Source: an uncultured Paracoccaceae bacterium
GTDB lineage: Bacteria; Pseudomonadota; Alphaproteobacteria; Rhodobacterales; Rhodobacteraceae
Assembly (NCBI GenBank): GCA_937916485.1
Contig: CALFSV010000115.1
Location: 1-7,889, forward strand
Length of the DNA stretch: 7,889 bases
Reading direction: 5' to 3'
The notes beneath the pieces are model-generated. The model had not been told where the DNA came from and made no database searches. It saw nothing but the letters and a program-made list of their open reading frames with translations. Shown here piece by piece: positions 31 through 7,889 of the stretch (positions within the stretch are counted from its first letter, which is position 1; each line of letters starts with the position of its first letter). A program made the translations under genes and the position numbers.

Positions 31-618
31 ATGGATTTGCCAACATTGTTCGAAGTCCTCGCGGCCAGTTTTGATGGTCCAGAAGATATTGAGAAACAAG
101 CGCAAGACGCGCTTCGCACAGCTGATTTTGCAACGCAAACCACCTATGATATGCATCCACTAACAGAGCCGTTCACGACCGTTATGTCACACCCTGACGC
201 ACATCCCGTCTGCAGCGTTATTGGGCAAACTCCACTGCCTTGGGCACCTCCGGAAACATCTTCTGATCCGCTTTACATCGCGCATAGCCTGCCGAAGGTG
301 AATGTGGAATTGTTGGGCCCCGACGGTCTGGTCAAGTCAGAGAAGGTCCGGTTGGGGCTCTATGGCATGTTGCCGAATTTCGAATATGGCATACGGAGCC
401 ACCCCGCCGAAGAGGTGTTTGTCATGTTTGCAGGGCAAGCCTTCTGGAAACGGGGTGCGGCAGCCTACGAAATCCTTGGACCGGGCGGGCGATCCTATCA
501 TCCTTCCATGATGCCCCATGCCAACAAGACTGGAGAAGTGGCGTTCTTATCGGCCTATGTCTGGCATGGCGACGTGTCGACCGAGCAGTATGTTTATGAT
601 GGATATCCCGACGCCTAG
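31..618 (+). CDS. DMSP lyase-family cupin (DddQ-like)
   Basis: Small single-domain cupin of about 195 aa, the usual length of DddQ-type DMSP lyases, which cleave dimethylsulfoniopropionate to DMS and acrylate. Residue numbers here count from the GTG at 19. A helical N-terminal ~90 residues precede the cupin barrel. The metal motif is at H128-x3-E132 (SHPAEEVF), and the second metal histidine is H167 in PSMMPHANKT; the 39-residue spacing resembles DddQ. Y123, five residues before H128, matches the upstream tyrosine of DddQ. In DddQ the motif is H-x3-E-x-Y and that tyrosine is reported as a metal ligand/catalytic residue; here it is F134. Family membership is well supported but lyase activity is doubtful. 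I chose ATG at 31 because GAGGTGG at 21-27 is a good ribosome binding site for it, and the GTG at 19 lies beside that site; an in-frame TAA at 16-18 rules out anything longer. The gene converges on the demethylase-like gene, with stops 2 nt apart. Confidence 0.78.
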   Translation: MDLPTLFEVLAASFDGPEDIEKQAQDALRTADFATQTTYDMHPLTEPFTTVMSHPDAHPVCSVIGQTPLPWAPPETSSDPLYIAHSLPKVNVELLGPDGLVKSEKVRLGLYGMLPNFEYGIRSHPAEEVFVMFAGQAFWKRGAAAYEILGPGGRSYHPSMMPHANKTGEVAFLSAYVWHGDVSTEQYVYDGYPDA

Positions 619-620
619 GT

Positions 621-1730
621 TCAGCACATTGGTAGCGTGGTCACGATGCCGTTCGAAACGCTGCCATCTTGAACTTGAACTGTTACCGCTTGACCTGCAT
701 CCCAAAACGCACGATCTATCATGGATTGCCCAACATTACATTTCAGGCGCGGGGACCAGATGGCAGAGGTAATCTGACCCACGCGCGTATCACCAACCAT
801 CACAGGCCAAGGTTTGGAACAAGTCGGGCAGTGCCCACCGTCAAATGTTACACCGCGCATTTCACGCGTCACACCCTTTGCCGCGATATCCTGCAACGCC
901 TTGCGCCCGATGTAGTCAATTGAGCCATCGGTCACGCAAAACTTGCCATGCCCAATCTCAAACGGGTTGTTCTCGCGCGTGAACTCATTGCCGTATGACA
1001 AAAGGCCGCCTTCAATCCGCTCTATCAGGTTGGGGCAACCGGGGGTGATGTTATGCGCTTGACCTGCGTCCCAGATGGCGTCCCAGAGTGCCGTTCCCAG
1101 GTGCCCCCCCTCCAGATATATCTCGAACCCGCCTTGGCGTGAATAGCCCGAGCGGGCGATCAATTGTCTGGTGCCCTGAAAGTCGACCCAGCCGTATTTG
1201 AAAAAGCCGACATCGCGGATATGCGCGCCGAAAAGCTCTGCCAGCAGATCTTCGGCCTTTGGACCTTGCACAGCCAGTGGCGACACATCAGGTTCGCTCA
1301 CCGCGACATCCAGACCACGCCCCAAGGCAAGACCCATCGCATAAAGCAAAACGTCACTGTCCGCGATGGACAGCCAGAACCGGTCCTCTGCCAGTTTCAA
1401 CATGACGGGATCGTTGATCATGCCAGCCTGTGCATCGATGATCGGAATGTAAAAACAGTCGCCGATCTTTGCGCGGGCGATATTGCGCGGTGTCATCAAT
1501 TGTACAAGGGCAGCAGCATCCAGTCCCGCAATCTGGACTTGACGCTGGCAGGAGACATCCCAGATCTGGACGTGGGCCCGCAGGTGCCAGTAATCCTCCT
1601 CCAGCGTGGGCTGGAACGCCTTGGGCAGCAGCATGTGATTGACGACGGAAAAGCCCCTCACACCGTTCTGTTCGACACGGTCGGTATAAGGCGTGCGGCG
1701 GATGCGCCGCGACATGTTCAGGCCGTCCAT
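621..1730 (-). CDS. dmdA: DMSP demethylase-like GcvT-family protein
   Basis: Soluble tetrahydrofolate-dependent methyltransferase of the GcvT/DmdA family, 369 aa, which I recall as also the length of SAR11 DmdA. DmdA moves a methyl group from DMSP to THF, giving methylmercaptopropionate. From residue 1: N-terminal SRRIRRTPY (7-15) and NHMLLPKAF (31-39), NDP (106-108) after the AGM turn, SIADSDVLL (121-129), EPDVSPLAVQGPKA (146-159), RSGYSRQGGFEIY (193-205), GCPNLIERIEGGLLSYGN (231-248), and a C-terminal beta-barrel domain with WSPRLKCNVG (325-334). These blocks follow DmdA more closely than glycine-cleavage T proteins. By my memory of the SAR11 structure, Trp197 lies in the substrate pocket; the equivalent here is Y196, while E203 and Y205 are kept. 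The start at 1730 is chosen because its ATG overlaps the upstream TGA (TGATG) and fits the family length; a longer frame from TTG at 1862 would run 130 nt into the upstream gene. It could be true DmdA or a paralogue for another methylated onium compound. Confidence 0.8.
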   Translation of the reverse strand: MDGLNMSRRIRRTPYTDRVEQNGVRGFSVVNHMLLPKAFQPTLEEDYWHLRAHVQIWDVSCQRQVQIAGLDAAALVQLMTPRNIARAKIGDCFYIPIIDAQAGMINDPVMLKLAEDRFWLSIADSDVLLYAMGLALGRGLDVAVSEPDVSPLAVQGPKAEDLLAELFGAHIRDVGFFKYGWVDFQGTRQLIARSGYSRQGGFEIYLEGGHLGTALWDAIWDAGQAHNITPGCPNLIERIEGGLLSYGNEFTRENNPFEIGHGKFCVTDGSIDYIGRKALQDIAAKGVTREMRGVTFDGGHCPTCSKPWPVMVGDTRVGQITSAIWSPRLKCNVGQSMIDRAFWDAGQAVTVQVQDGSVSNGIVTTLPMC

Positions 1731-2065
1731 CAGCGCGAGGTCCACATCGAATAGGAATTGGGGTTCAAGATAATCGGCATATGATATGCGCCTTCGGGGT
1801 CTGTCATGGCAAAGCGCAGCGCGATTTGCGTGACCGCAGCGGGCATGTTGCGGGCGGCCCAATAGCGGGCAGTGTCAAAGACCAATTCATACATCGCGTC
1901 AGGATCAATGTCTTTGGCGTCGATGTTTTCTGATAGCCGGCCGCCTTCATCCATCTGCGCGGTAAAGGTCACGGTGCTTGTGGTCAGGTTCGTCAATGTC
2001 ACAGGAATCTCTCCCGCATGGGTGCCATCAGTGCCATTGAGCGTATGCGACGTAAGAGTTGCCAT
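1730..2065 (-). CDS. transthyretin-like hydroxyisourate hydrolase homologue
   Basis: A 111-aa protein with the full transthyretin-like fold pattern of 5-hydroxyisourate hydrolase (HIUase), which opens the product of urate oxidation. Matches in order: LTSHTLN (4-10) with the conserved His at H7; MDEGGR (38-43) with the conserved Arg at R43; YELVFDTARYW (59-69); and YHMPIILNPNSYS (94-106) with the conserved His at H95. The family's diagnostic C-terminal YRGS is replaced by WTSR (108-111), which ends the protein. Canonical HIUases use the three conserved residues plus the YRGS tail in the active site of a tetramer, so substrate preference has probably changed. No urate oxidase, OHCU decarboxylase or allantoinase is visible in the window, which argues against purine breakdown. 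The ATG overlaps the stop of the ThDP gene by one base (TAATG) and its own TGA overlaps the next ATG. With no strong ribosome binding site of its own, it is probably translated by coupling. Confidence 0.82.
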   Translation of the reverse strand: MATLTSHTLNGTDGTHAGEIPVTLTNLTTSTVTFTAQMDEGGRLSENIDAKDIDPDAMYELVFDTARYWAARNMPAAVTQIALRFAMTDPEGAYHMPIILNPNSYSMWTSR

Positions 2066-3783
2066 TATTCAATCGAAGCCTTGTCCCGTTTATCTGATGT
2101 TGCGGCCACAATCGGGCTAATCACACCGCGACATTTGACATTCACAATGGCAGTTTTGCCGCTGGCCATCGCCCGTTGCAAGGCGGGGGCAAGTTGGTCG
2201 CGTGTTTCCACCAATTCACCATGCCCACCTAGACCTTCGCACATCGCGTGGAACGGAATATCGCGGAAATCGGTGGCAAAGTGTTTGCCGTTCGCAAACA
2301 GGCGTTCTTGTTGCTGCGAGATACAGTCCAGACCGCCATTGTTGTCGATCACGATGGTGATGGGCAGATTGTCCTGAAAGGCGGATTCAATCGACAGGCC
2401 GCCAGACAGAAACGCGCCATCGCCGGAGATCACTACCACATTGCGATTTGGATGCAGCGCCTTGGCAGAGACGCCAAAGGACACTCCAACCCCAAGCAAA
2501 GAGTAATTGCCGGGGTGCATGATCCCGCCCAGTTTCTGCCCGCGCCATCCGGCCATGTTCACCGCAATCTCTGACCAGAAATGGGTGTTGCCGCCGTCAA
2601 AGATCAGCCAGTCGTTTTCGCCCATTTGCTCCTGCACGTCCAGTGACAGTTGCAGAGGGTGCATCTTGCCGGGCTTGGCACTCTCGGCTTCGATATGGGC
2701 GTACCATTCATCCACCCAAGCAGCTCGGCGGGTCCGTTGCAGATCAAACCATTCGGGCCACATTTTGCCCACGCCGCTCAAGGCCTCAAGGAAGGCGCCG
2801 GGATCGCAGAGCAGCACCTCGTCGGCAGCTTGATTGTATTCTAATTCTTCGTGACTGCCGTTGATGCAGACCAGTGTTTGATCCTCCGTGAAAAACGGCG
2901 GATTGCCAAAGTTCATTTGATTGTCCAGACGCGCCCCGATCATCAGGACCAAATCAGCCTCGTGAATGGCGGGTTTCGACGGGTGATACTGGTGAAAATC
3001 TGCAAGGCCCATATAGGCCTCACATTCTTCGCCAAGCAGTTTGGAATGATAAGGAACGTTGAAAATCGGTAAGCGCAGGGCTTTACCGACCTGTTCCAGC
3101 TTCTCCTCGGACTTGGACCACCAGACGCCATGACCACCGATGATAACGGGACGCTTTGCGTTTTTCACCTTCTCCAAAACTACGCCTAAGGCGGTAGGGT
3201 CAGGCCATGCACGCGGGGCAGTGCGATCCGTGCGGTTGAACGGGCGCTCGTCCAGTCCCGCATCGGGCGCGAAGGATGAGAACATGATGTCCACCGGCAA
3301 TGAGATATGGACAGGGCCGGGGTAGCCGGTTGTTGCGGCGGTCCATGCGCGGTTTACAAACTCGCTGATCCGTTCGCCATCGGTGATCTGGGCGGAATAC
3401 TTGACCAAGGGGGCCGCAATGGCGACATCGTCGATCTCTTTGAAACCGCCCGCACCCTGACGTTTGAGCGTTGATGATCCGGTGACAAAAATGACCGGGC
3501 TGCGTTCGCCGCCTGCCTCCAGCATCGCGGGCACGGCGTTAGCAAAGCCTTCGGGGCCGACAAGGCAAACGACGGGTTTGCGGGTGATGCGGGCGTGACC
3601 ATCCGCCAAATGCCCTGCGATCTGTTCATGAGGGGTGTTGATGACCGGCATCTGACATTCCATGAATCCTTCAAGCGCAGGATTGCAAAAGCCACCGGCT
3701 AGCGTGAACACATGGTCCACCCCTTTTTCTTTGAGGGCGCGGGCCAGCAAAGCGCCGCCTCTGATCATTTTGGAATCCGTCAT
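2065..3783 (-). CDS. ThDP-dependent enzyme (acetolactate synthase/2-oxoacid decarboxylase group)
   Basis: Cytosolic thiamine-diphosphate enzyme of 572 aa with all three domains of the acetolactate synthase/benzoylformate decarboxylase superfamily. The N-terminal PYR domain has FTLAGGFCNPAL (26-37) and PHEQIAGHLADGHAR (51-65), with the cofactor-activating glutamate E53. A central domain (~190-350) contains VIIGGHG. The C-terminal PP domain has GDG at 454-456 followed by NN at 481-482, the Mg/diphosphate motif. It is not glyoxylate carboligase, which lacks the glutamate. The LVGPEGFANAV stretch (74-84) replaces the region that carries the catalytic His of benzoylformate decarboxylase, so the reaction cannot be fixed by motif: decarboxylation of a 2-oxo acid, C-C ligation or acyl-CoA lysis remain possible. 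Its place 15 nt after a 2-hydroxy acid oxidase, as in mandelate operons, suggests that it takes that enzyme's 2-oxo acid product. The ATG at 3783 has a GTAGGA-type ribosome binding site around 3792-3797, overlapping the upstream stop. Confidence 0.88.
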   Translation of the reverse strand: MTDSKMIRGGALLARALKEKGVDHVFTLAGGFCNPALEGFMECQMPVINTPHEQIAGHLADGHARITRKPVVCLVGPEGFANAVPAMLEAGGERSPVIFVTGSSTLKRQGAGGFKEIDDVAIAAPLVKYSAQITDGERISEFVNRAWTAATTGYPGPVHISLPVDIMFSSFAPDAGLDERPFNRTDRTAPRAWPDPTALGVVLEKVKNAKRPVIIGGHGVWWSKSEEKLEQVGKALRLPIFNVPYHSKLLGEECEAYMGLADFHQYHPSKPAIHEADLVLMIGARLDNQMNFGNPPFFTEDQTLVCINGSHEELEYNQAADEVLLCDPGAFLEALSGVGKMWPEWFDLQRTRRAAWVDEWYAHIEAESAKPGKMHPLQLSLDVQEQMGENDWLIFDGGNTHFWSEIAVNMAGWRGQKLGGIMHPGNYSLLGVGVSFGVSAKALHPNRNVVVISGDGAFLSGGLSIESAFQDNLPITIVIDNNGGLDCISQQQERLFANGKHFATDFRDIPFHAMCEGLGGHGELVETRDQLAPALQRAMASGKTAIVNVKCRGVISPIVAATSDKRDKASIE

Positions 3784-3798
3784 TGGATATGTCCTACT

Positions 3799-4995
3799 TC
3801 AGGTTTTGGCGGCGAGCCGCAAGGCCGCCTGTGTTTTCGTTTCCGCATCAACGTGCGCGTGACTCGCGTCTTGGAAAATGACATTGGGTCCAAGCTGGTC
3901 AATCGAAGTGATGCCCAATTGCGCCATTACAACACTGATATCTGTCGCAAAGCAGCTCAGAAGCGCGTTCAGACCGGCCGCGCCTTCGGCCCCCAAAGCA
4001 AAGAGGGCAGGGCGCCCAATCATCACAAAATCAGCACCAAGGGCGAGCGCCTTGATGATGTCTTCACCATTGCGAATGCCACTGTCGAACAACAGCGGGA
4101 ATTCGGGACCAACAGCGGCACGGATCAGTGGCAAAAGCCGGATCGCGGGGGGAACGCTGTCCAACTGCCGCCCGCCATGGTTCGAGACATAGATTGCGTC
4201 GGCCCCCAAACTGCGGATGCGGAGTGCATCCGCCGCAGATGTCACACCTTTGACAATCAGCTTGCCCGGCCATTTGCCCCGCAACCGCTCCAGAAACGCC
4301 CAGTCTGCACCAGACCGGCTTGCCCCGCGATCAAAGGTGTTGCTGCCTTTACTATCGGTAAAGTTCATCGGGCGCGGCGCGCCTGCAGCCAGCGTGCTGA
4401 GAGACCAGCTTGGGTGGGTGGCGAAGTCCCAGAATGCGCGGGGCGTCATGGCAAAGGGAACCGTGAAGCCATTGCGCAGATCGCGCACCCTGCGAGAAAC
4501 CTGCGGCACATCCACCGTCAAGATCAGCGTTTCATATCCGGCAATTTGGGCACGTTCGACCATGGCAAAAGATGCCTCTTGAGAACCGCCAAAATAGAGC
4601 TGGAACCAAGCATGCAGTCCCGCCATGCGCGCCATATCTTCAATTGAGGTGGAGGCGGCGGAGGACAGGCACATGGGGAAATCCATGGCCTTTGAGGCAC
4701 TTGCAATCGACGCGTCGGCCATCGGATGCACAAGATTGCACATGCCCATAGGGGCGATTCCAAATGGCACTTTGTAGGATTGCCCCATAAAAGTCGTGGC
4801 TAGAGAAGACTGTGCGACATCTGTCATCACACGGGGTTGCAGCATGACATTATCGAACTGAGAGACATTGCGCGCCGTGCCGACTTCGCGCCCAGAAGCC
4901 CCTTCGACAAAATCAAAGACAAGCCGGGGCAGCCGCCGGTCAGCCAGCCGTCTCGCGTCTTCGTTCGAAAAAATTCTGCTACTGCGCTGCATCAT
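3799..4995 (-). CDS. FMN-dependent alpha-hydroxy acid oxidase/dehydrogenase
   Basis: Member of the FMN-binding (TIM barrel) family of lactate dehydrogenase LldD, mandelate dehydrogenase and glycolate oxidase; it oxidises a 2-hydroxy acid to a 2-oxo acid. At 398 aa it has LldD length. Visible active-site and FMN residues: QLY (Y134), TVD (D162), SRR (R169), VKG (K249), the base histidine and arginine in SNHGGRQLD (H273, R276), and DSGIRNG plus MIGRP (R308, R328) for FMN phosphate. The tyrosine near the N-terminus that binds substrate carboxylate (Tyr24 of spinach glycolate oxidase) is F29 here, in LVFDFVEGA. There is no signal peptide; some relatives are membrane-associated, but nothing in the sequence decides this. 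First gene of the minus-strand operon, 15 nt before the ThDP gene. Two adjacent ATGs (4995, 4992) are possible starts; AAGG at 5010-5007 is a weak ribosome binding site. Substrate unknown; lactate, glycolate, mandelate-like or larger 2-hydroxy acids are all possible. Confidence 0.9.
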   Translation of the reverse strand: MMQRSSRIFSNEDARRLADRRLPRLVFDFVEGASGREVGTARNVSQFDNVMLQPRVMTDVAQSSLATTFMGQSYKVPFGIAPMGMCNLVHPMADASIASASKAMDFPMCLSSAASTSIEDMARMAGLHAWFQLYFGGSQEASFAMVERAQIAGYETLILTVDVPQVSRRVRDLRNGFTVPFAMTPRAFWDFATHPSWSLSTLAAGAPRPMNFTDSKGSNTFDRGASRSGADWAFLERLRGKWPGKLIVKGVTSAADALRIRSLGADAIYVSNHGGRQLDSVPPAIRLLPLIRAAVGPEFPLLFDSGIRNGEDIIKALALGADFVMIGRPALFALGAEGAAGLNALLSCFATDISVVMAQLGITSIDQLGPNVIFQDASHAHVDAETKTQAALRLAAKT

Positions 4996-5162
4996 ACGGG
5001 CGAATGCCTTTAATTATGTCTGATTTCTCTCAGTTTAAAAGAATTTGGTTGCCCTGACCAATCGAATAATCTCTCTAACCCATACGTCAGGGCTATTCCT
5101 TTTCGCATTCATACGTCCAATGAATATGTCGCCTCGCTTTTTCGATTAGTCAAGAACTCGGA

Positions 5163-5187
5163 CTAAAGTTTATGCTTTAAACATTAG
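5163..5187. promoter_or_regulatory. quasi-palindromic operator candidate
   Basis: Arms CTAAAGTTTA and TAAACATTAG flank a 5-nt centre (TGCTT); nine of ten arm positions are complementary, and one further pair (5161/5189) matches beyond a mismatch. It covers the likely -10 element TATGCT of the transporter promoter and lies 83 nt before the dctP ATG, the usual position of a repressor site. The cognate regulator is unknown. Confidence 0.5.
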
Positions 5188-5260
5188 ACGAGGCTTTACC
5201 GTCGCCTCACATATTGCGCTTGAACGCTTTGCAACAGGAACGTTGGGCGCGCATCGTTTG

Positions 5261-5266
5261 GGAGAA
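5261..5266 (+). promoter_or_regulatory. dctP ribosome binding site
   Basis: GGAGAA ends 4 nt before the ATG at 5271 (a short but workable spacing) and decides the start. The frame is open back to a TTG at 5214, but the residues encoded between them would put a non-hydrophobic extension in front of the signal peptide. Confidence 0.6.
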
Positions 5267-5270
5267 CCCG

Positions 5271-6293
5271 ATGACATTTCGAGAATCAACTCAGAGGCTC
5301 AAAGTTAGCTGTGCGGTGGTTGCTGTGGGCGCAATTTCACTGATACTCACGGGCGCCGTCAGCGCACAGGAATATACTGCGCGACTGTCGGTGCACTGGG
5401 GACCAACACACCATAGTGCAATTCACGCCAAGATGTTCGCTGACGAGGTTAACAAACGCGCCGATGGGCGGCTTCGTATCGACTATTTTCCGTCCGGTCA
5501 GCTTTTTGGCGTCCGCGAGCAACTTGGCGCGGTTACCTCTGGAGCCATTGAGATGGGCGGTATCGTCGGGGTGGTGTCGTTTCCGCCGATCAACAAGAAT
5601 TTTAACGTGGTTTCGATCACCGGTATGTTCGACAGCTATGGCGAACAGCGCGCATTCTTTCAGGACGATCCAACTGGCAAGGCCGTTTGGGATGACATTA
5701 CAAAAAAATCAGACTCTGTACTGTTGATGTATGACCCCGTTGGTCCTGTGATGACCTTCTCAACACAGGAATTGAATGGCGTGAAGTCGATGTCAGGCTT
5801 AAAGGCTCGGGCCTTGATCGGGGCAGAGCGGCCGATGTGGGAGGCACTTGGCGCCAACACGGTGTCCATGCCGACGGGGGAGGTCTATTCTGGTCTTCAA
5901 ACCGGTATGATCGACACGATCAACAGCCCTCCAGGTTCCATCCGCGCGTTCAGCTGGTGGGAATACCTTACTCATGGTCAAAAGCCATACCAATACTACG
6001 CGGATGCCTACATCATGGCGAACAAGACATGGTTCAACGGGCTCCCTCAGGACTTGCAGCAATTGCTGATCAACGTGGGCCAAGAGGTCGGCCAAATATC
6101 GACTGACGAGATCCTGAAGACAGGCGAGGAAACGCTGACAGAATTTCAAGAACGTGGTGGGATCGTCACCAAACTCGAAGGCGACGCGCTGGCCGAATTC
6201 AACACGTTGATGAGCGACAAAGTGATACCAGTCATTGCAGACACAGTTGATGCAGATGTTATCTCAGCAGCTTCTGCTTTCGCCGCCAACTGA
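5271..6293 (+). CDS. dctP: TRAP transporter substrate-binding protein DctP
   Basis: Periplasmic solute receptor of a tripartite ATP-independent periplasmic (TRAP) transporter; 340 aa, normal for the family. Residues 1-32 form a Sec signal peptide: basic start, hydrophobic core (VAVGAISLILTGAV, 17-30) and a predicted cut after AVSA, before Q33. Family marks are HWGPTHHSA (42-50), FADEVNKRADGRLRIDYFP (56-74), SGLKARAL (175-182) with the conserved ligand-binding arginine at R180, and PTGEVYSGLQTGMID (201-215). That arginine normally salt-bridges the carboxylate of the ligand, so the cargo is probably an organic acid or zwitterion with a carboxyl group. Aromatic residues NSPPGSIRAFSWWEY (218-232) occupy the region that shapes the pocket; they might suit a cationic or bulky group, but this is inference. 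First gene of the rightward operon, divergent from the oxidase operon, which suggests that it imports that pathway's substrate. Confidence 0.93.
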   Translation: MTFRESTQRLKVSCAVVAVGAISLILTGAVSAQEYTARLSVHWGPTHHSAIHAKMFADEVNKRADGRLRIDYFPSGQLFGVREQLGAVTSGAIEMGGIVGVVSFPPINKNFNVVSITGMFDSYGEQRAFFQDDPTGKAVWDDITKKSDSVLLMYDPVGPVMTFSTQELNGVKSMSGLKARALIGAERPMWEALGANTVSMPTGEVYSGLQTGMIDTINSPPGSIRAFSWWEYLTHGQKPYQYYADAYIMANKTWFNGLPQDLQQLLINVGQEVGQISTDEILKTGEETLTEFQERGGIVTKLEGDALAEFNTLMSDKVIPVIADTVDADVISAASAFAAN

Positions 6294-6310
6294 GATGAAT
6301 GAAAGCGAAC

Positions 6311-6360
6311 GCCTGCGCAGTCTGTGTGGGCGTCACACTAACACCTGCGGGGCTGTTTTC
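6311..6360 (+). terminator. dctP-dctQ intercistronic hairpin
   Basis: Hairpin starting 17 nt after the dctP stop. GCC (6311-6313) pairs with GGC (6351-6353), CGCAG (6316-6320) with CTGCG (6345-6349), and GTGTG (6324-6328) with CACAC (6334-6338) around a 5-nt loop. TGTTTTC (6354-6360) follows, giving a terminator-like outline. As an attenuator or a 3'-end stabiliser it would let the binding protein be made in excess over the membrane subunits. The 3' arm also contains GGGG (6349-6352), the only purine-rich stretch before the dctQ ATG. Confidence 0.5.
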
Positions 6361-6362
6361 TA

Positions 6363-6881
6363 ATGACAACGATCTTGTCGTTAATGCGTATCCTCAACGG
6401 CGCGCTTGAAAAACTCACCGCTGTGATATCTTCCAGCCTTGCGGCGATTATGGTTCTGGCCCTGACCGGAAGCGCAGTGACACGCTATATAAGCGGCACC
6501 GGGTACGACTGGTTCATCGAATTGCCCCCGGCGTTGGTGCCTTGGATGGTTTTTCCGCTACTGGGGCCGTTGCTGCGGTCAGGATCGCATATTCAGGTCG
6601 ACCTGCTGCCTACTCTCTTGGAGGGCAAGGCGGCGCTGTGGCTCAAGTTGTTTGTCTATTCACTGATGGTTTTGGGGTCATTGATTTTCCTGCAAGCGGG
6701 GAATGAGGCTGTAGCTTTGTTCCGTCGTCTTGGCCAACTCATGGAACTGGAAATCGAACTGCCGATCTGGTGGATGTATTTGGCGTTTCCAACTGGTTTT
6801 TTCATTCTTTTGCTCTTTTCATTTGAGTTGTGGCTAGAGACGCTCTGTGAACTGACAACCCGTGAAGGAACCGCATCATGA
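6363..6881 (+). CDS. dctQ: TRAP transporter small permease subunit DctQ
   Basis: Small integral membrane subunit of the TRAP transporter, 172 aa, with the four expected hydrophobic segments at roughly 20-40, 55-72, 92-112 and 135-158. The family signature RSGSHIQVDLLP (72-83) sits after the second segment. DctQ packs against DctM and helps dock the loaded binding protein. It follows dctP by 69 nt, a gap that holds a hairpin with a T-rich tail, and it lacks a good ribosome binding site: only GGGG, inside the hairpin arm, lies about 10 nt upstream. Translation may therefore depend on that structure. The stop overlaps the dctM start by 4 nt (ATGA), so the two membrane subunits are translationally coupled. 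ATG at 6384 is an alternative start, but it has no ribosome binding site either and would shorten the N-terminus only slightly. Confidence 0.9.
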   Translation: MTTILSLMRILNGALEKLTAVISSSLAAIMVLALTGSAVTRYISGTGYDWFIELPPALVPWMVFPLLGPLLRSGSHIQVDLLPTLLEGKAALWLKLFVYSLMVLGSLIFLQAGNEAVALFRRLGQLMELEIELPIWWMYLAFPTGFFILLLFSFELWLETLCELTTREGTAS

Positions 6882-7889
6882 ACGCTGCTGCTACGTTACT
6901 TTCTATGCTCTTGCTGCTTTTGTCGGTGCCGATCTTTATGGTCTTTGGCCTGGGCAGTGCTTCAGTGGCGATACTTGGCATGGACCTTCCATGGTCCACA
7001 CTTATTCAGGTCTCCTTTGGATCGATGACCAAACATGTGCTGATTGCAGTGCCGTTGTTCATTTTCACGGGCATGGTCATGCTGCGAGGTGGCGCCGCCG
7101 CAAGGCTGGTTCATTTTGCCACCACATTGGTTGGCCATTGGCCTGGTGGCCTGGGTTTGGCGATGATCCTTGCTATGGGTTTTTTCGCAGCGTTCTGCGG
7201 ATCTATTCTGGCGGCGATTACTGCGGTAGGTACGATTATGATCCCAAAGATGGTCGAACAAGGCTATCCAAAACCCTTTGTAATCGTGCTCGCAGCCTCT
7301 GCTGCGTTTCTGGAAGCGCTGATCCCACCGTCTAACGCAGCGATCCTTTTCAGCGCGCTGACCGATGTGCCAGTGTCGCGCACATTTGCCGCGGGTTTCG
7401 TGCCGGGCATTGTTTTGCTGGTTCTTTTGTCCATCGTTGTCACATGGCGCTGCCGCAATCTGCGCAATCCTGAGAAAGCGACCGCCGCTGAGCGTTTGTC
7501 AGCCTTCCGCTCCGCCGTACCGGGATTATTCACGCCATTTATTATTCTGGGTGGCATCTATGCTGGATTGCTGACGCCCTCTGAATCTGCCGCCGTTGCG
7601 GGTATCTGGGCCATTCTGATCGGTATTTTGATTTATCGGGAGCTGACGTTTCGCGCGCTTTTAGACGCTTTGCATCAGACCGCGCGGATCACTGCTGTGA
7701 TCTTTTCCATCATCGCGATGGCCACTTTCTTGAGCGTTGTTTTGACCTATACTCAGGCGCCGCAAAAGCTGATTGCCTTTTTCACTGAAATGGGTGGCAC
7801 GCCGATGGCATTCTGGCTGGCTGTTGCGGTGATTTGCCTGATCCTTGGCACCTTCGTTGAGATTGTGCCGGTGTTTTATCTCACTGTGC
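6878..7889 (+). CDS. dctM: TRAP transporter large permease subunit DctM (partial, 3' end missing)
   Basis: N-terminal 337 residues of the large TRAP permease, which carries out Na+-driven substrate transport; complete homologues have about 425 aa, so roughly a fifth is outside the window. The frame is open from the ATG at 6878 to the last base. Hydrophobic segments run through most of the sequence. Family motifs: FFAAFCGSILAAITAVGTIM (102-121), IPPSN (149-153) and GGIYAGLLTPSESAAVA (225-241). In several places where common DctM sequences have SGS or GG-type small residues, this one has FCGS and ASAAFLEA, a mild divergence that may reflect a different cargo. AAGGA at 6865-6869 is a good ribosome binding site, and the ATG overlaps the dctQ stop (ATGA), the usual coupling of these two genes. 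Confidence 0.92.
   Translation, partial: MNAAATLLSMLLLLLSVPIFMVFGLGSASVAILGMDLPWSTLIQVSFGSMTKHVLIAVPLFIFTGMVMLRGGAAARLVHFATTLVGHWPGGLGLAMILAMGFFAAFCGSILAAITAVGTIMIPKMVEQGYPKPFVIVLAASAAFLEALIPPSNAAILFSALTDVPVSRTFAAGFVPGIVLLVLLSIVVTWRCRNLRNPEKATAAERLSAFRSAVPGLFTPFIILGGIYAGLLTPSESAAVAGIWAILIGILIYRELTFRALLDALHQTARITAVIFSIIAMATFLSVVLTYTQAPQKLIAFFTEMGGTPMAFWLAVAVICLILGTFVEIVPVFYLTV

Follow-up and report, generated by a model that had tools for sequence, protein, structure and literature searches.

A conserved four-gene operon with a distinct DmdA homologue in roseobacters and some SAR11 bacteria: a candidate pathway for a methylated 2-hydroxy acid

A stretch of 7,889 nucleotides (the window; contig CALFSV010000115.1, assembly GCA_937916485.1) from an uncultured Paracoccaceae bacterium carries an operon encoding a flavin mononucleotide (FMN)-dependent L-2-hydroxy acid dehydrogenase, a thiamine diphosphate (ThDP)-dependent enzyme, a transthyretin/HIUase-family hydrolase (HIU) and a homologue of the demethylase DmdA, and this FMN-ThDP-HIU-DmdA set is a real, widespread module of roseobacters and some SAR11 bacteria. 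On balance, the protein families and their genomic context argue that the operon probably directs a marine catabolic pathway in which a small, imported, methylated 2-hydroxy acid would be degraded with tetrahydrofolate (THF)-dependent demethylation. Methylated osmolytes are a major food for surface-ocean bacteria, and dmdA is a standard marker for demethylation of dimethylsulfoniopropionate (DMSP). If roseobacters and part of SAR11 (17 of 197 sampled genomes of that family, judged by a strong HIU match) keep a second DmdA group locked into a different operon, a substrate that has escaped measurement would be implied, and estimates built on dmdA could be biased. The named strains Planktotalea frisia SH6-1 and Leisingera sp. 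ANG-Vp carry the operon, which makes the question testable.

The four genes lie on the minus strand of the window. The first (3799..4995) encodes the FMN enzyme (PF01070, 403.9 bits) and is followed by genes for the ThDP enzyme (2065..3783; PF02776, PF00205 and PF02775), probably a 2-oxo acid decarboxylase or lyase, for an HIU homologue of a separate subfamily (1730..2065; PF00576, 65.2 bits), and for the DmdA homologue (621..1730), which probably acts as a THF-dependent methyltransferase of a distinct group and scores 569.7 bits with the curated NCBIfam model NF009133, for which the cut-off is 410. A gap of 15 bp separates the FMN and ThDP genes, and the ThDP/HIU and HIU/DmdA junctions each overlap by 1 bp. 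The initial annotation of the window had read this gene content, together with a divergent TRAP importer and an adjacent DddQ-like cupin, from the sequence, and Pfam and NCBIfam scores identified every one of these genes. Its statement that no locus with this combination had been described also holds within the open-licence literature searched, where no description of the operon was found; no NCBIfam model gives a name to the ThDP or the HIU protein above its cut-off.

Conservation of the set was assessed with HIU as bait, using an alignment of the window protein and 29 relatives among the 120 listed of 243 found. The best 80 of 88 loci encoding an HIU relative were compared (43 non-SAR11 and 37 SAR11; loci and genomes are numbered here with the prefixes L and G), and 17 further loci were inspected beyond these. 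In this collection HIU is present by construction, and loci with too little flanking sequence were dropped from the adjacency counts. The ThDP gene adjoins HIU in all 78 loci that could be counted (42/42 non-SAR11, 36/36 SAR11), DmdA adjoins HIU in 71 of 78 (35/42 and 36/36), and the FMN gene lies upstream in 63 of 72 (31/40 and 32/32). Exceptions to DmdA adjacency are L027, where DmdA is found about 2.5 kb away on the opposite strand, L033, L035, L036, L038, L042 and L059; those for the FMN gene are L012, L017, L027, L030, L033, L037, L040, L042 and L059. The SAR11 loci are near-copies of each other and thus do not amount to 36 independent cases. The genes, which the initial annotation had taken to form one unit, co-occur regularly rather than rarely, and their adjacency across the baited loci rules out a chance assembly.

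The family to which the window belongs offered a view free of the HIU bait: of 248 sampled genomes, 127 held a DmdA homologue at E 1e-60. Matches of at least 64% identity occurred in nine of these genomes, and in all nine the gene stood beside HIU; the same arrangement was seen in G033, G090 and G172 at 49-55% DmdA identity. An HIU match at E 1e-12 was present in 59 family genomes, those beyond the operon cases scoring 50-58 bits, a range into which G090 and G172 also fall. Within the SAR11 family sample, the HIU marker was found at E 4e-35 or better in the 17 genomes mentioned above, and 15 more gave weak matches only. A search with the ThDP protein at E 1e-160 returned at least six of 385 genomes of the class, including the window's own, and the latter alone among 299 of the phylum sample (with at most three or four candidates scored per genome, misses are possible); plasmids searched with the same protein gave zero matches at E 1e-150.

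Three loci (L042, L059 and L154) hold the ThDP-HIU pair without FMN and DmdA genes, behind TctA/TctC importers (TctA and/or TctC by Pfam), which points to the pair as the innermost core of the module. At L042 a MesX gene (L042:11668-12645; PF08908, 587 bits) lies about 2.3 kb past the pair, and from reading of the sequence a methionine-synthase-like gene appears next. A second ThDP-HIU copy is present at L036:335-4747, and L035 is alike, with a GlcD-like flavin adenine dinucleotide (FAD) oxidase and a TauD dioxygenase in place of the FMN gene. Operon loci were also found under Sulfurimonas and Neomarinimicrobiota metagenome-assembled genomes (L023 and L026), possibly on mis-binned contigs, each with a second DmdA homologue of about 45% identity.

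The operon DmdA is of the same family as the DmdA of Pelagibacter (3TFH) and that of the Ruegeria type, the latter SPO1913, and in addition to passing NF009133 it keeps the folate-contact positions E204 (56 of 56 operon DmdAs) and Y206 (55 of 56). The folate role of these residues is taken from an excerpt of PMC7487153, by way of a constant numbering offset inferred here. The operon proteins nevertheless stand apart from known DmdA. In a quick tree of 56 operon rows, 20 roseobacter DmdAs chosen by identity (51-55%) and 3TFH as the sole named DmdA, with long branches that include 3TFH, L153, L155, L156 and L157, the 56 formed one group (Shimodaira-Hasegawa-like approximate likelihood ratio test, 96) separate from the other 21. 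At position 32 of 3TFH, all 21 ordinary DmdAs have Tyr, whereas 55 of the 56 operon proteins have Val and one a gap (Y32V); at position 63, Glu in all 21 is replaced by Gln in 54 of 56 (E63Q). The operon DmdA is further distinguished by its fixed association with the FMN, ThDP and HIU genes and, in SAR11, by its coexistence with a second DmdA of ordinary appearance. Searches of the genomes of 27 of the 37 SAR11 loci, all of them incomplete, revealed a second homologue of 49-51% identity in 24, and the window genome, which is about 90% complete, yielded no further DmdA match above 36% identity. According to an excerpt of Sun et al. (2011; PMC3160333), strain HTCC1062 has DmdA plus further DmdA-related genes, the substrates of which are not known. 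It is tentatively proposed, with doubt slightly outweighing confidence, that the operon DmdA group, instead of demethylating DMSP, could perform methyl transfer in a pathway not yet recognised, by which roseobacters and part of SAR11 would use a methylated compound abundant in the sea; surveys relying on DmdA models would then miscount it as DMSP demethylation. Apart from the operon gene, the SAR11 cluster opens with a second DmdA-like gene of about 33% identity (L044:4208-5431 and others) and an S51 hydrolase gene.

The best full-length match of known function to the FMN enzyme was (S)-mandelate dehydrogenase (MDH). The alignment with full-length MDH extends across the stretch in which that enzyme has its membrane segment, and hence "dehydrogenase" is more apt than the "oxidase" of the initial annotation, whose placing of the protein among FMN 2-hydroxy acid enzymes was correct. 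The equivalents of MDH Q129, Y131 and R165 are kept in all 72 distinct orthologues, and the Lys, His and Arg of the VKG and SNHGGRQL motifs are aligned in the window protein. The equivalent of MDH Y26, the Tyr that contacts the substrate carboxylate, is Phe in 69 of the 72 and Tyr in three; this replacement hints at an unusual substrate, perhaps one with no free carboxylate beside the hydroxyl, such as an amide or lactone. With the ThDP protein, none of the 25 NCBIfam models listed reached its cut-off; among 86 distinct sequences, at least 95% keep the HEQ glutamate and GDG motif. The mandelate pathway, composed of mandelate dehydrogenase and benzoylformate decarboxylase, likewise pairs an FMN-dependent dehydrogenase for a 2-hydroxy acid with a subsequent ThDP enzyme. 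The operon differs from that pathway in that its ThDP protein is nearest to 2-hydroxyacyl-CoA lyase/oxalyl-CoA decarboxylase and benzaldehyde lyase chains, and in the addition of the HIU-like and DmdA genes.

The HIU homologue shares with PucM and other HIUases both the transthyretin family and the catalytic His-Arg-His triad (H7, R42 and H98 in PucM numbering, from the aligned stretch), present without change in all 85 distinct sequences. It differs from them in scoring below the curated HIUase cut-off (TIGR02962, 65.5 against 87.45 bits), in its context, which is not that of purine catabolism, and at the position of PucM Y111. This Tyr, part of the C-terminal YRGS signature of HIUases, is replaced by Trp in 84 of 85 sequences and by a gap in the other. 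An ordinary HIUase of purine catabolism is thus ruled out, both the curated cut-off and the C-terminal signature being missed.

In the pathway proposed for these proteins, the substrate would be taken up by the TRAP system here and by a Dpp-type ABC importer in other bacteria, the permease of which is found in 44 of the 80 loci (14/43 non-SAR11, 30/37 SAR11). The FMN dehydrogenase would then convert the 2-hydroxy group to give a 2-oxo acid, its electrons probably passing to the membrane, and the ThDP enzyme would decarboxylate this product or cleave a C-C bond, in a reaction tightly linked to hydrolysis by the HIU-like protein. Finally, the DmdA-group enzyme would transfer the methyl group to THF for one-carbon oxidation. 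A 2-hydroxy acid is the likely substrate class, given the FMN enzyme itself, the LDH2 and PanE relatives among the operon neighbours, and the GlcD-like oxidase beside the second ThDP-HIU copy; replacement of the FMN enzyme by such an oxidase (L036, and L035 by likeness) would fit oxidation of a 2-hydroxy acid of either handedness. Other methyl-transfer genes nearby were counted in favour of a methylated substrate, namely MttB genes (8 of 43 non-SAR11 loci), a gene of the homocysteine S-methyltransferase family at L153, and the second DmdA-like gene of SAR11.

The methyl group is most likely carried on sulfur, a view favoured by genes for SBP56, a protein of the methanethiol-oxidase type. Such genes occur near the operon in five of the 43 non-SAR11 loci (L015, L030, L037, L038 and L040), with those of L015, L030 and L038 confirmed by Pfam, and L030, L037 and L040 represent one lineage on the DmdA tree. 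All three motifs of cluster-1 methanethiol oxidases, as given in an excerpt of PMC10936201, are present in the L030 and L015 proteins and two in the partial L038 sequence; two representatives of that cluster are stated there to have consumed methanethiol. When the 12 operon genomes were compared with the 236 others of the family sample, in statistics that ignore ancestry, SBP56 of any kind was found in 10 of 12 against 72 of 236 (Fisher p 4e-4). With a split into two lengths that was chosen after the scores had been seen, the type of about 450 amino acids was found in 8 of 12 against 20 of 236 (p 4e-6); when only genomes holding a DmdA homologue were compared, the counts were 8 of 12 and 17 of 115 (p 2e-4). 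In G201, an SBP56 fragment (L163:1914-2207) also occurs 7 kb away from the operon DmdA.

Several observations weigh against the proposed pathway or its sulfur part, beginning with the neglect of ancestry and the late choice of the length split in these comparisons. The longer SBP56 type was not associated with operon genomes (4 of 12 against 46 of 236, p 0.2), and SBP56 is absent from all 37 SAR11 loci and from the approximately 90% complete window genome. In at least eight genomes (G036, G043, G066, G006, G161, G113, G208 and G240), SBP56 genes and DmdA-family genes that do not belong to the operon are no more than about 6 kb apart, so that SBP56 may track DmdA relatives generally. N-methyl compounds would also suit, in view of the MttB genes and of L156, where genes for a carnitine 3-dehydrogenase (above cut-off) and a keto-acid cleavage family protein stand beside the operon. 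In the scheme no chemistry is assigned to the HIU-like protein, the S51 hydrolase or the Dpp importers. Lastly, the ThDP-HIU pairs of L042, L059 and L154, the last of these being G234 of the family sample with a strong HIU match and no DmdA, indicate that oxidation and demethylation are not always part of the module.

The N-methyl alternative, in which DmdA-group and MttB proteins would remove methyl groups from a quaternary or tertiary amine such as a betaine- or carnitine-like hydroxy acid, is considered unlikely. In known direct methyl transfer by DmdA the donor is a sulfonium, which counts against an amine, as do the SBP56 association and the lack of any MttB match in the 37 SAR11 loci and in L005, the near-identical relative of the window. 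The MttB genes of other loci (8 of 43 non-SAR11 and 5 of the 17 further ones) and the L156 neighbours would nonetheless be accounted for, and an excerpt of PMC12478193 ties pfam06253 (MttB family) proteins to glycine betaine demethylation in R. pomeroyi. That the operon DmdA simply demethylates DMSP, with the other three genes serving a neighbouring reaction, is quite unlikely: the window protein exceeds the curated DmdA cut-off and could be the only DmdA of its genome, but the operon proteins form their separate group with Y32V and E63Q fixed, and 24 of the 27 operon-bearing SAR11 genomes searched hold another DmdA homologue. A methylated ureide, hydantoin or other cyclic amide, opened by the HIU-like protein before the FMN and ThDP enzymes act on the resulting acid, would explain the invariant triad and is improbable. 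LDH2-family neighbours in 6 of 43 non-SAR11 loci, which match ureidoglycolate dehydrogenase among others below cut-off, the agmatinase-family genes near L162 and L165, and an asparaginase gene at L152 are consistent with it, whereas the altered C-terminal signature is not, and the 32 neighbour clusters common to at least three loci, part of which were scanned with Pfam, yielded no recognisable family of the purine pathway.

The specific route put forward by the initial annotation is the least probable of these alternatives. It would lead from 4-dimethylsulfonio-2-hydroxybutyrate (DMSHB) through 4-dimethylsulfonio-2-oxobutyrate and DMSP-aldehyde to DMSP, to be demethylated by the operon DmdA. 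Its FMN and ThDP steps follow the known chemistry of mandelate operons, and DmdA homology and the SBP56 association agree with it. According to an excerpt of PMC11306096, DMSHB occurs naturally as an intermediate, and the one enzyme known for that decarboxylase activity, the DsyD domain, resembles ureidoglycolate lyase. The two weak points acknowledged with that proposal have, however, been borne out. Aldehyde dehydrogenase is no regular neighbour, occurring at L008 alone among the 80 loci and at L153 among the 17 further ones, and the invariant HIU triad implies a step that plain DMSHB would not need. The S51 hydrolase (6 of 43 non-SAR11 and 32 of 37 SAR11 loci) and the L152 asparaginase also have no role in that route; with the triad and the Dpp permease they are clues to an amide. 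The Dpp importers and the ThDP-HIU pairs lacking FMN and DmdA likewise argue against plain DMSHB. The cupin, moreover, is not conserved with the operon. What survives of the earlier pathway is the likely 2-hydroxy acid substrate, with some independent support for sulfur from SBP56, and not DMSHB itself.

The remaining genes of the window lie on the plus strand. Divergent from the operon are genes for a TRAP importer, comprising the solute-binding protein DctP (5271..6293; PF03480, 139.2 bits for the longer frame from 5214), the small permease DctQ (6363..6881; PF04290, 63.7 bits) and the large permease DctM (6878..7889; PF06808, 240.4 bits), which runs past the window end. Although the importer is present as first annotated, DctP accompanies the operon in only 3 of the 80 loci, and the TRAP system is a local extra, one among several importers. 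The same is true of the cupin (31..618; PF16867, 53.1 bits over the C-terminal half), which is convergent with the operon and was found in only three of the 80 loci (L004-L006), all with 98-100% identity to the window protein; it is thereby ruled out as a member of the conserved unit. Its likeness to DddQ rests on PF16867 and the positions aligned with DddQ H125, E129 and H163, and is incomplete in that Phe replaces Tyr131, the catalytic Tyr of DddQ, and Arg replaces His123. The host contig, of 9506 bases, ends 95 bases before window position 1; beyond the other end of the window, DctM is completed (422 amino acids, L003) and a LysR gene follows. The locus of strain IMCC1909 (L005), encoding proteins 98-99% identical to those of the window, continues past the cupin with genes for an LDH2-type protein, a Dpp-type ABC importer and an S51 hydrolase (named through Pfam scans of homologues), and this layout may show what could lie past the cupin of the window.

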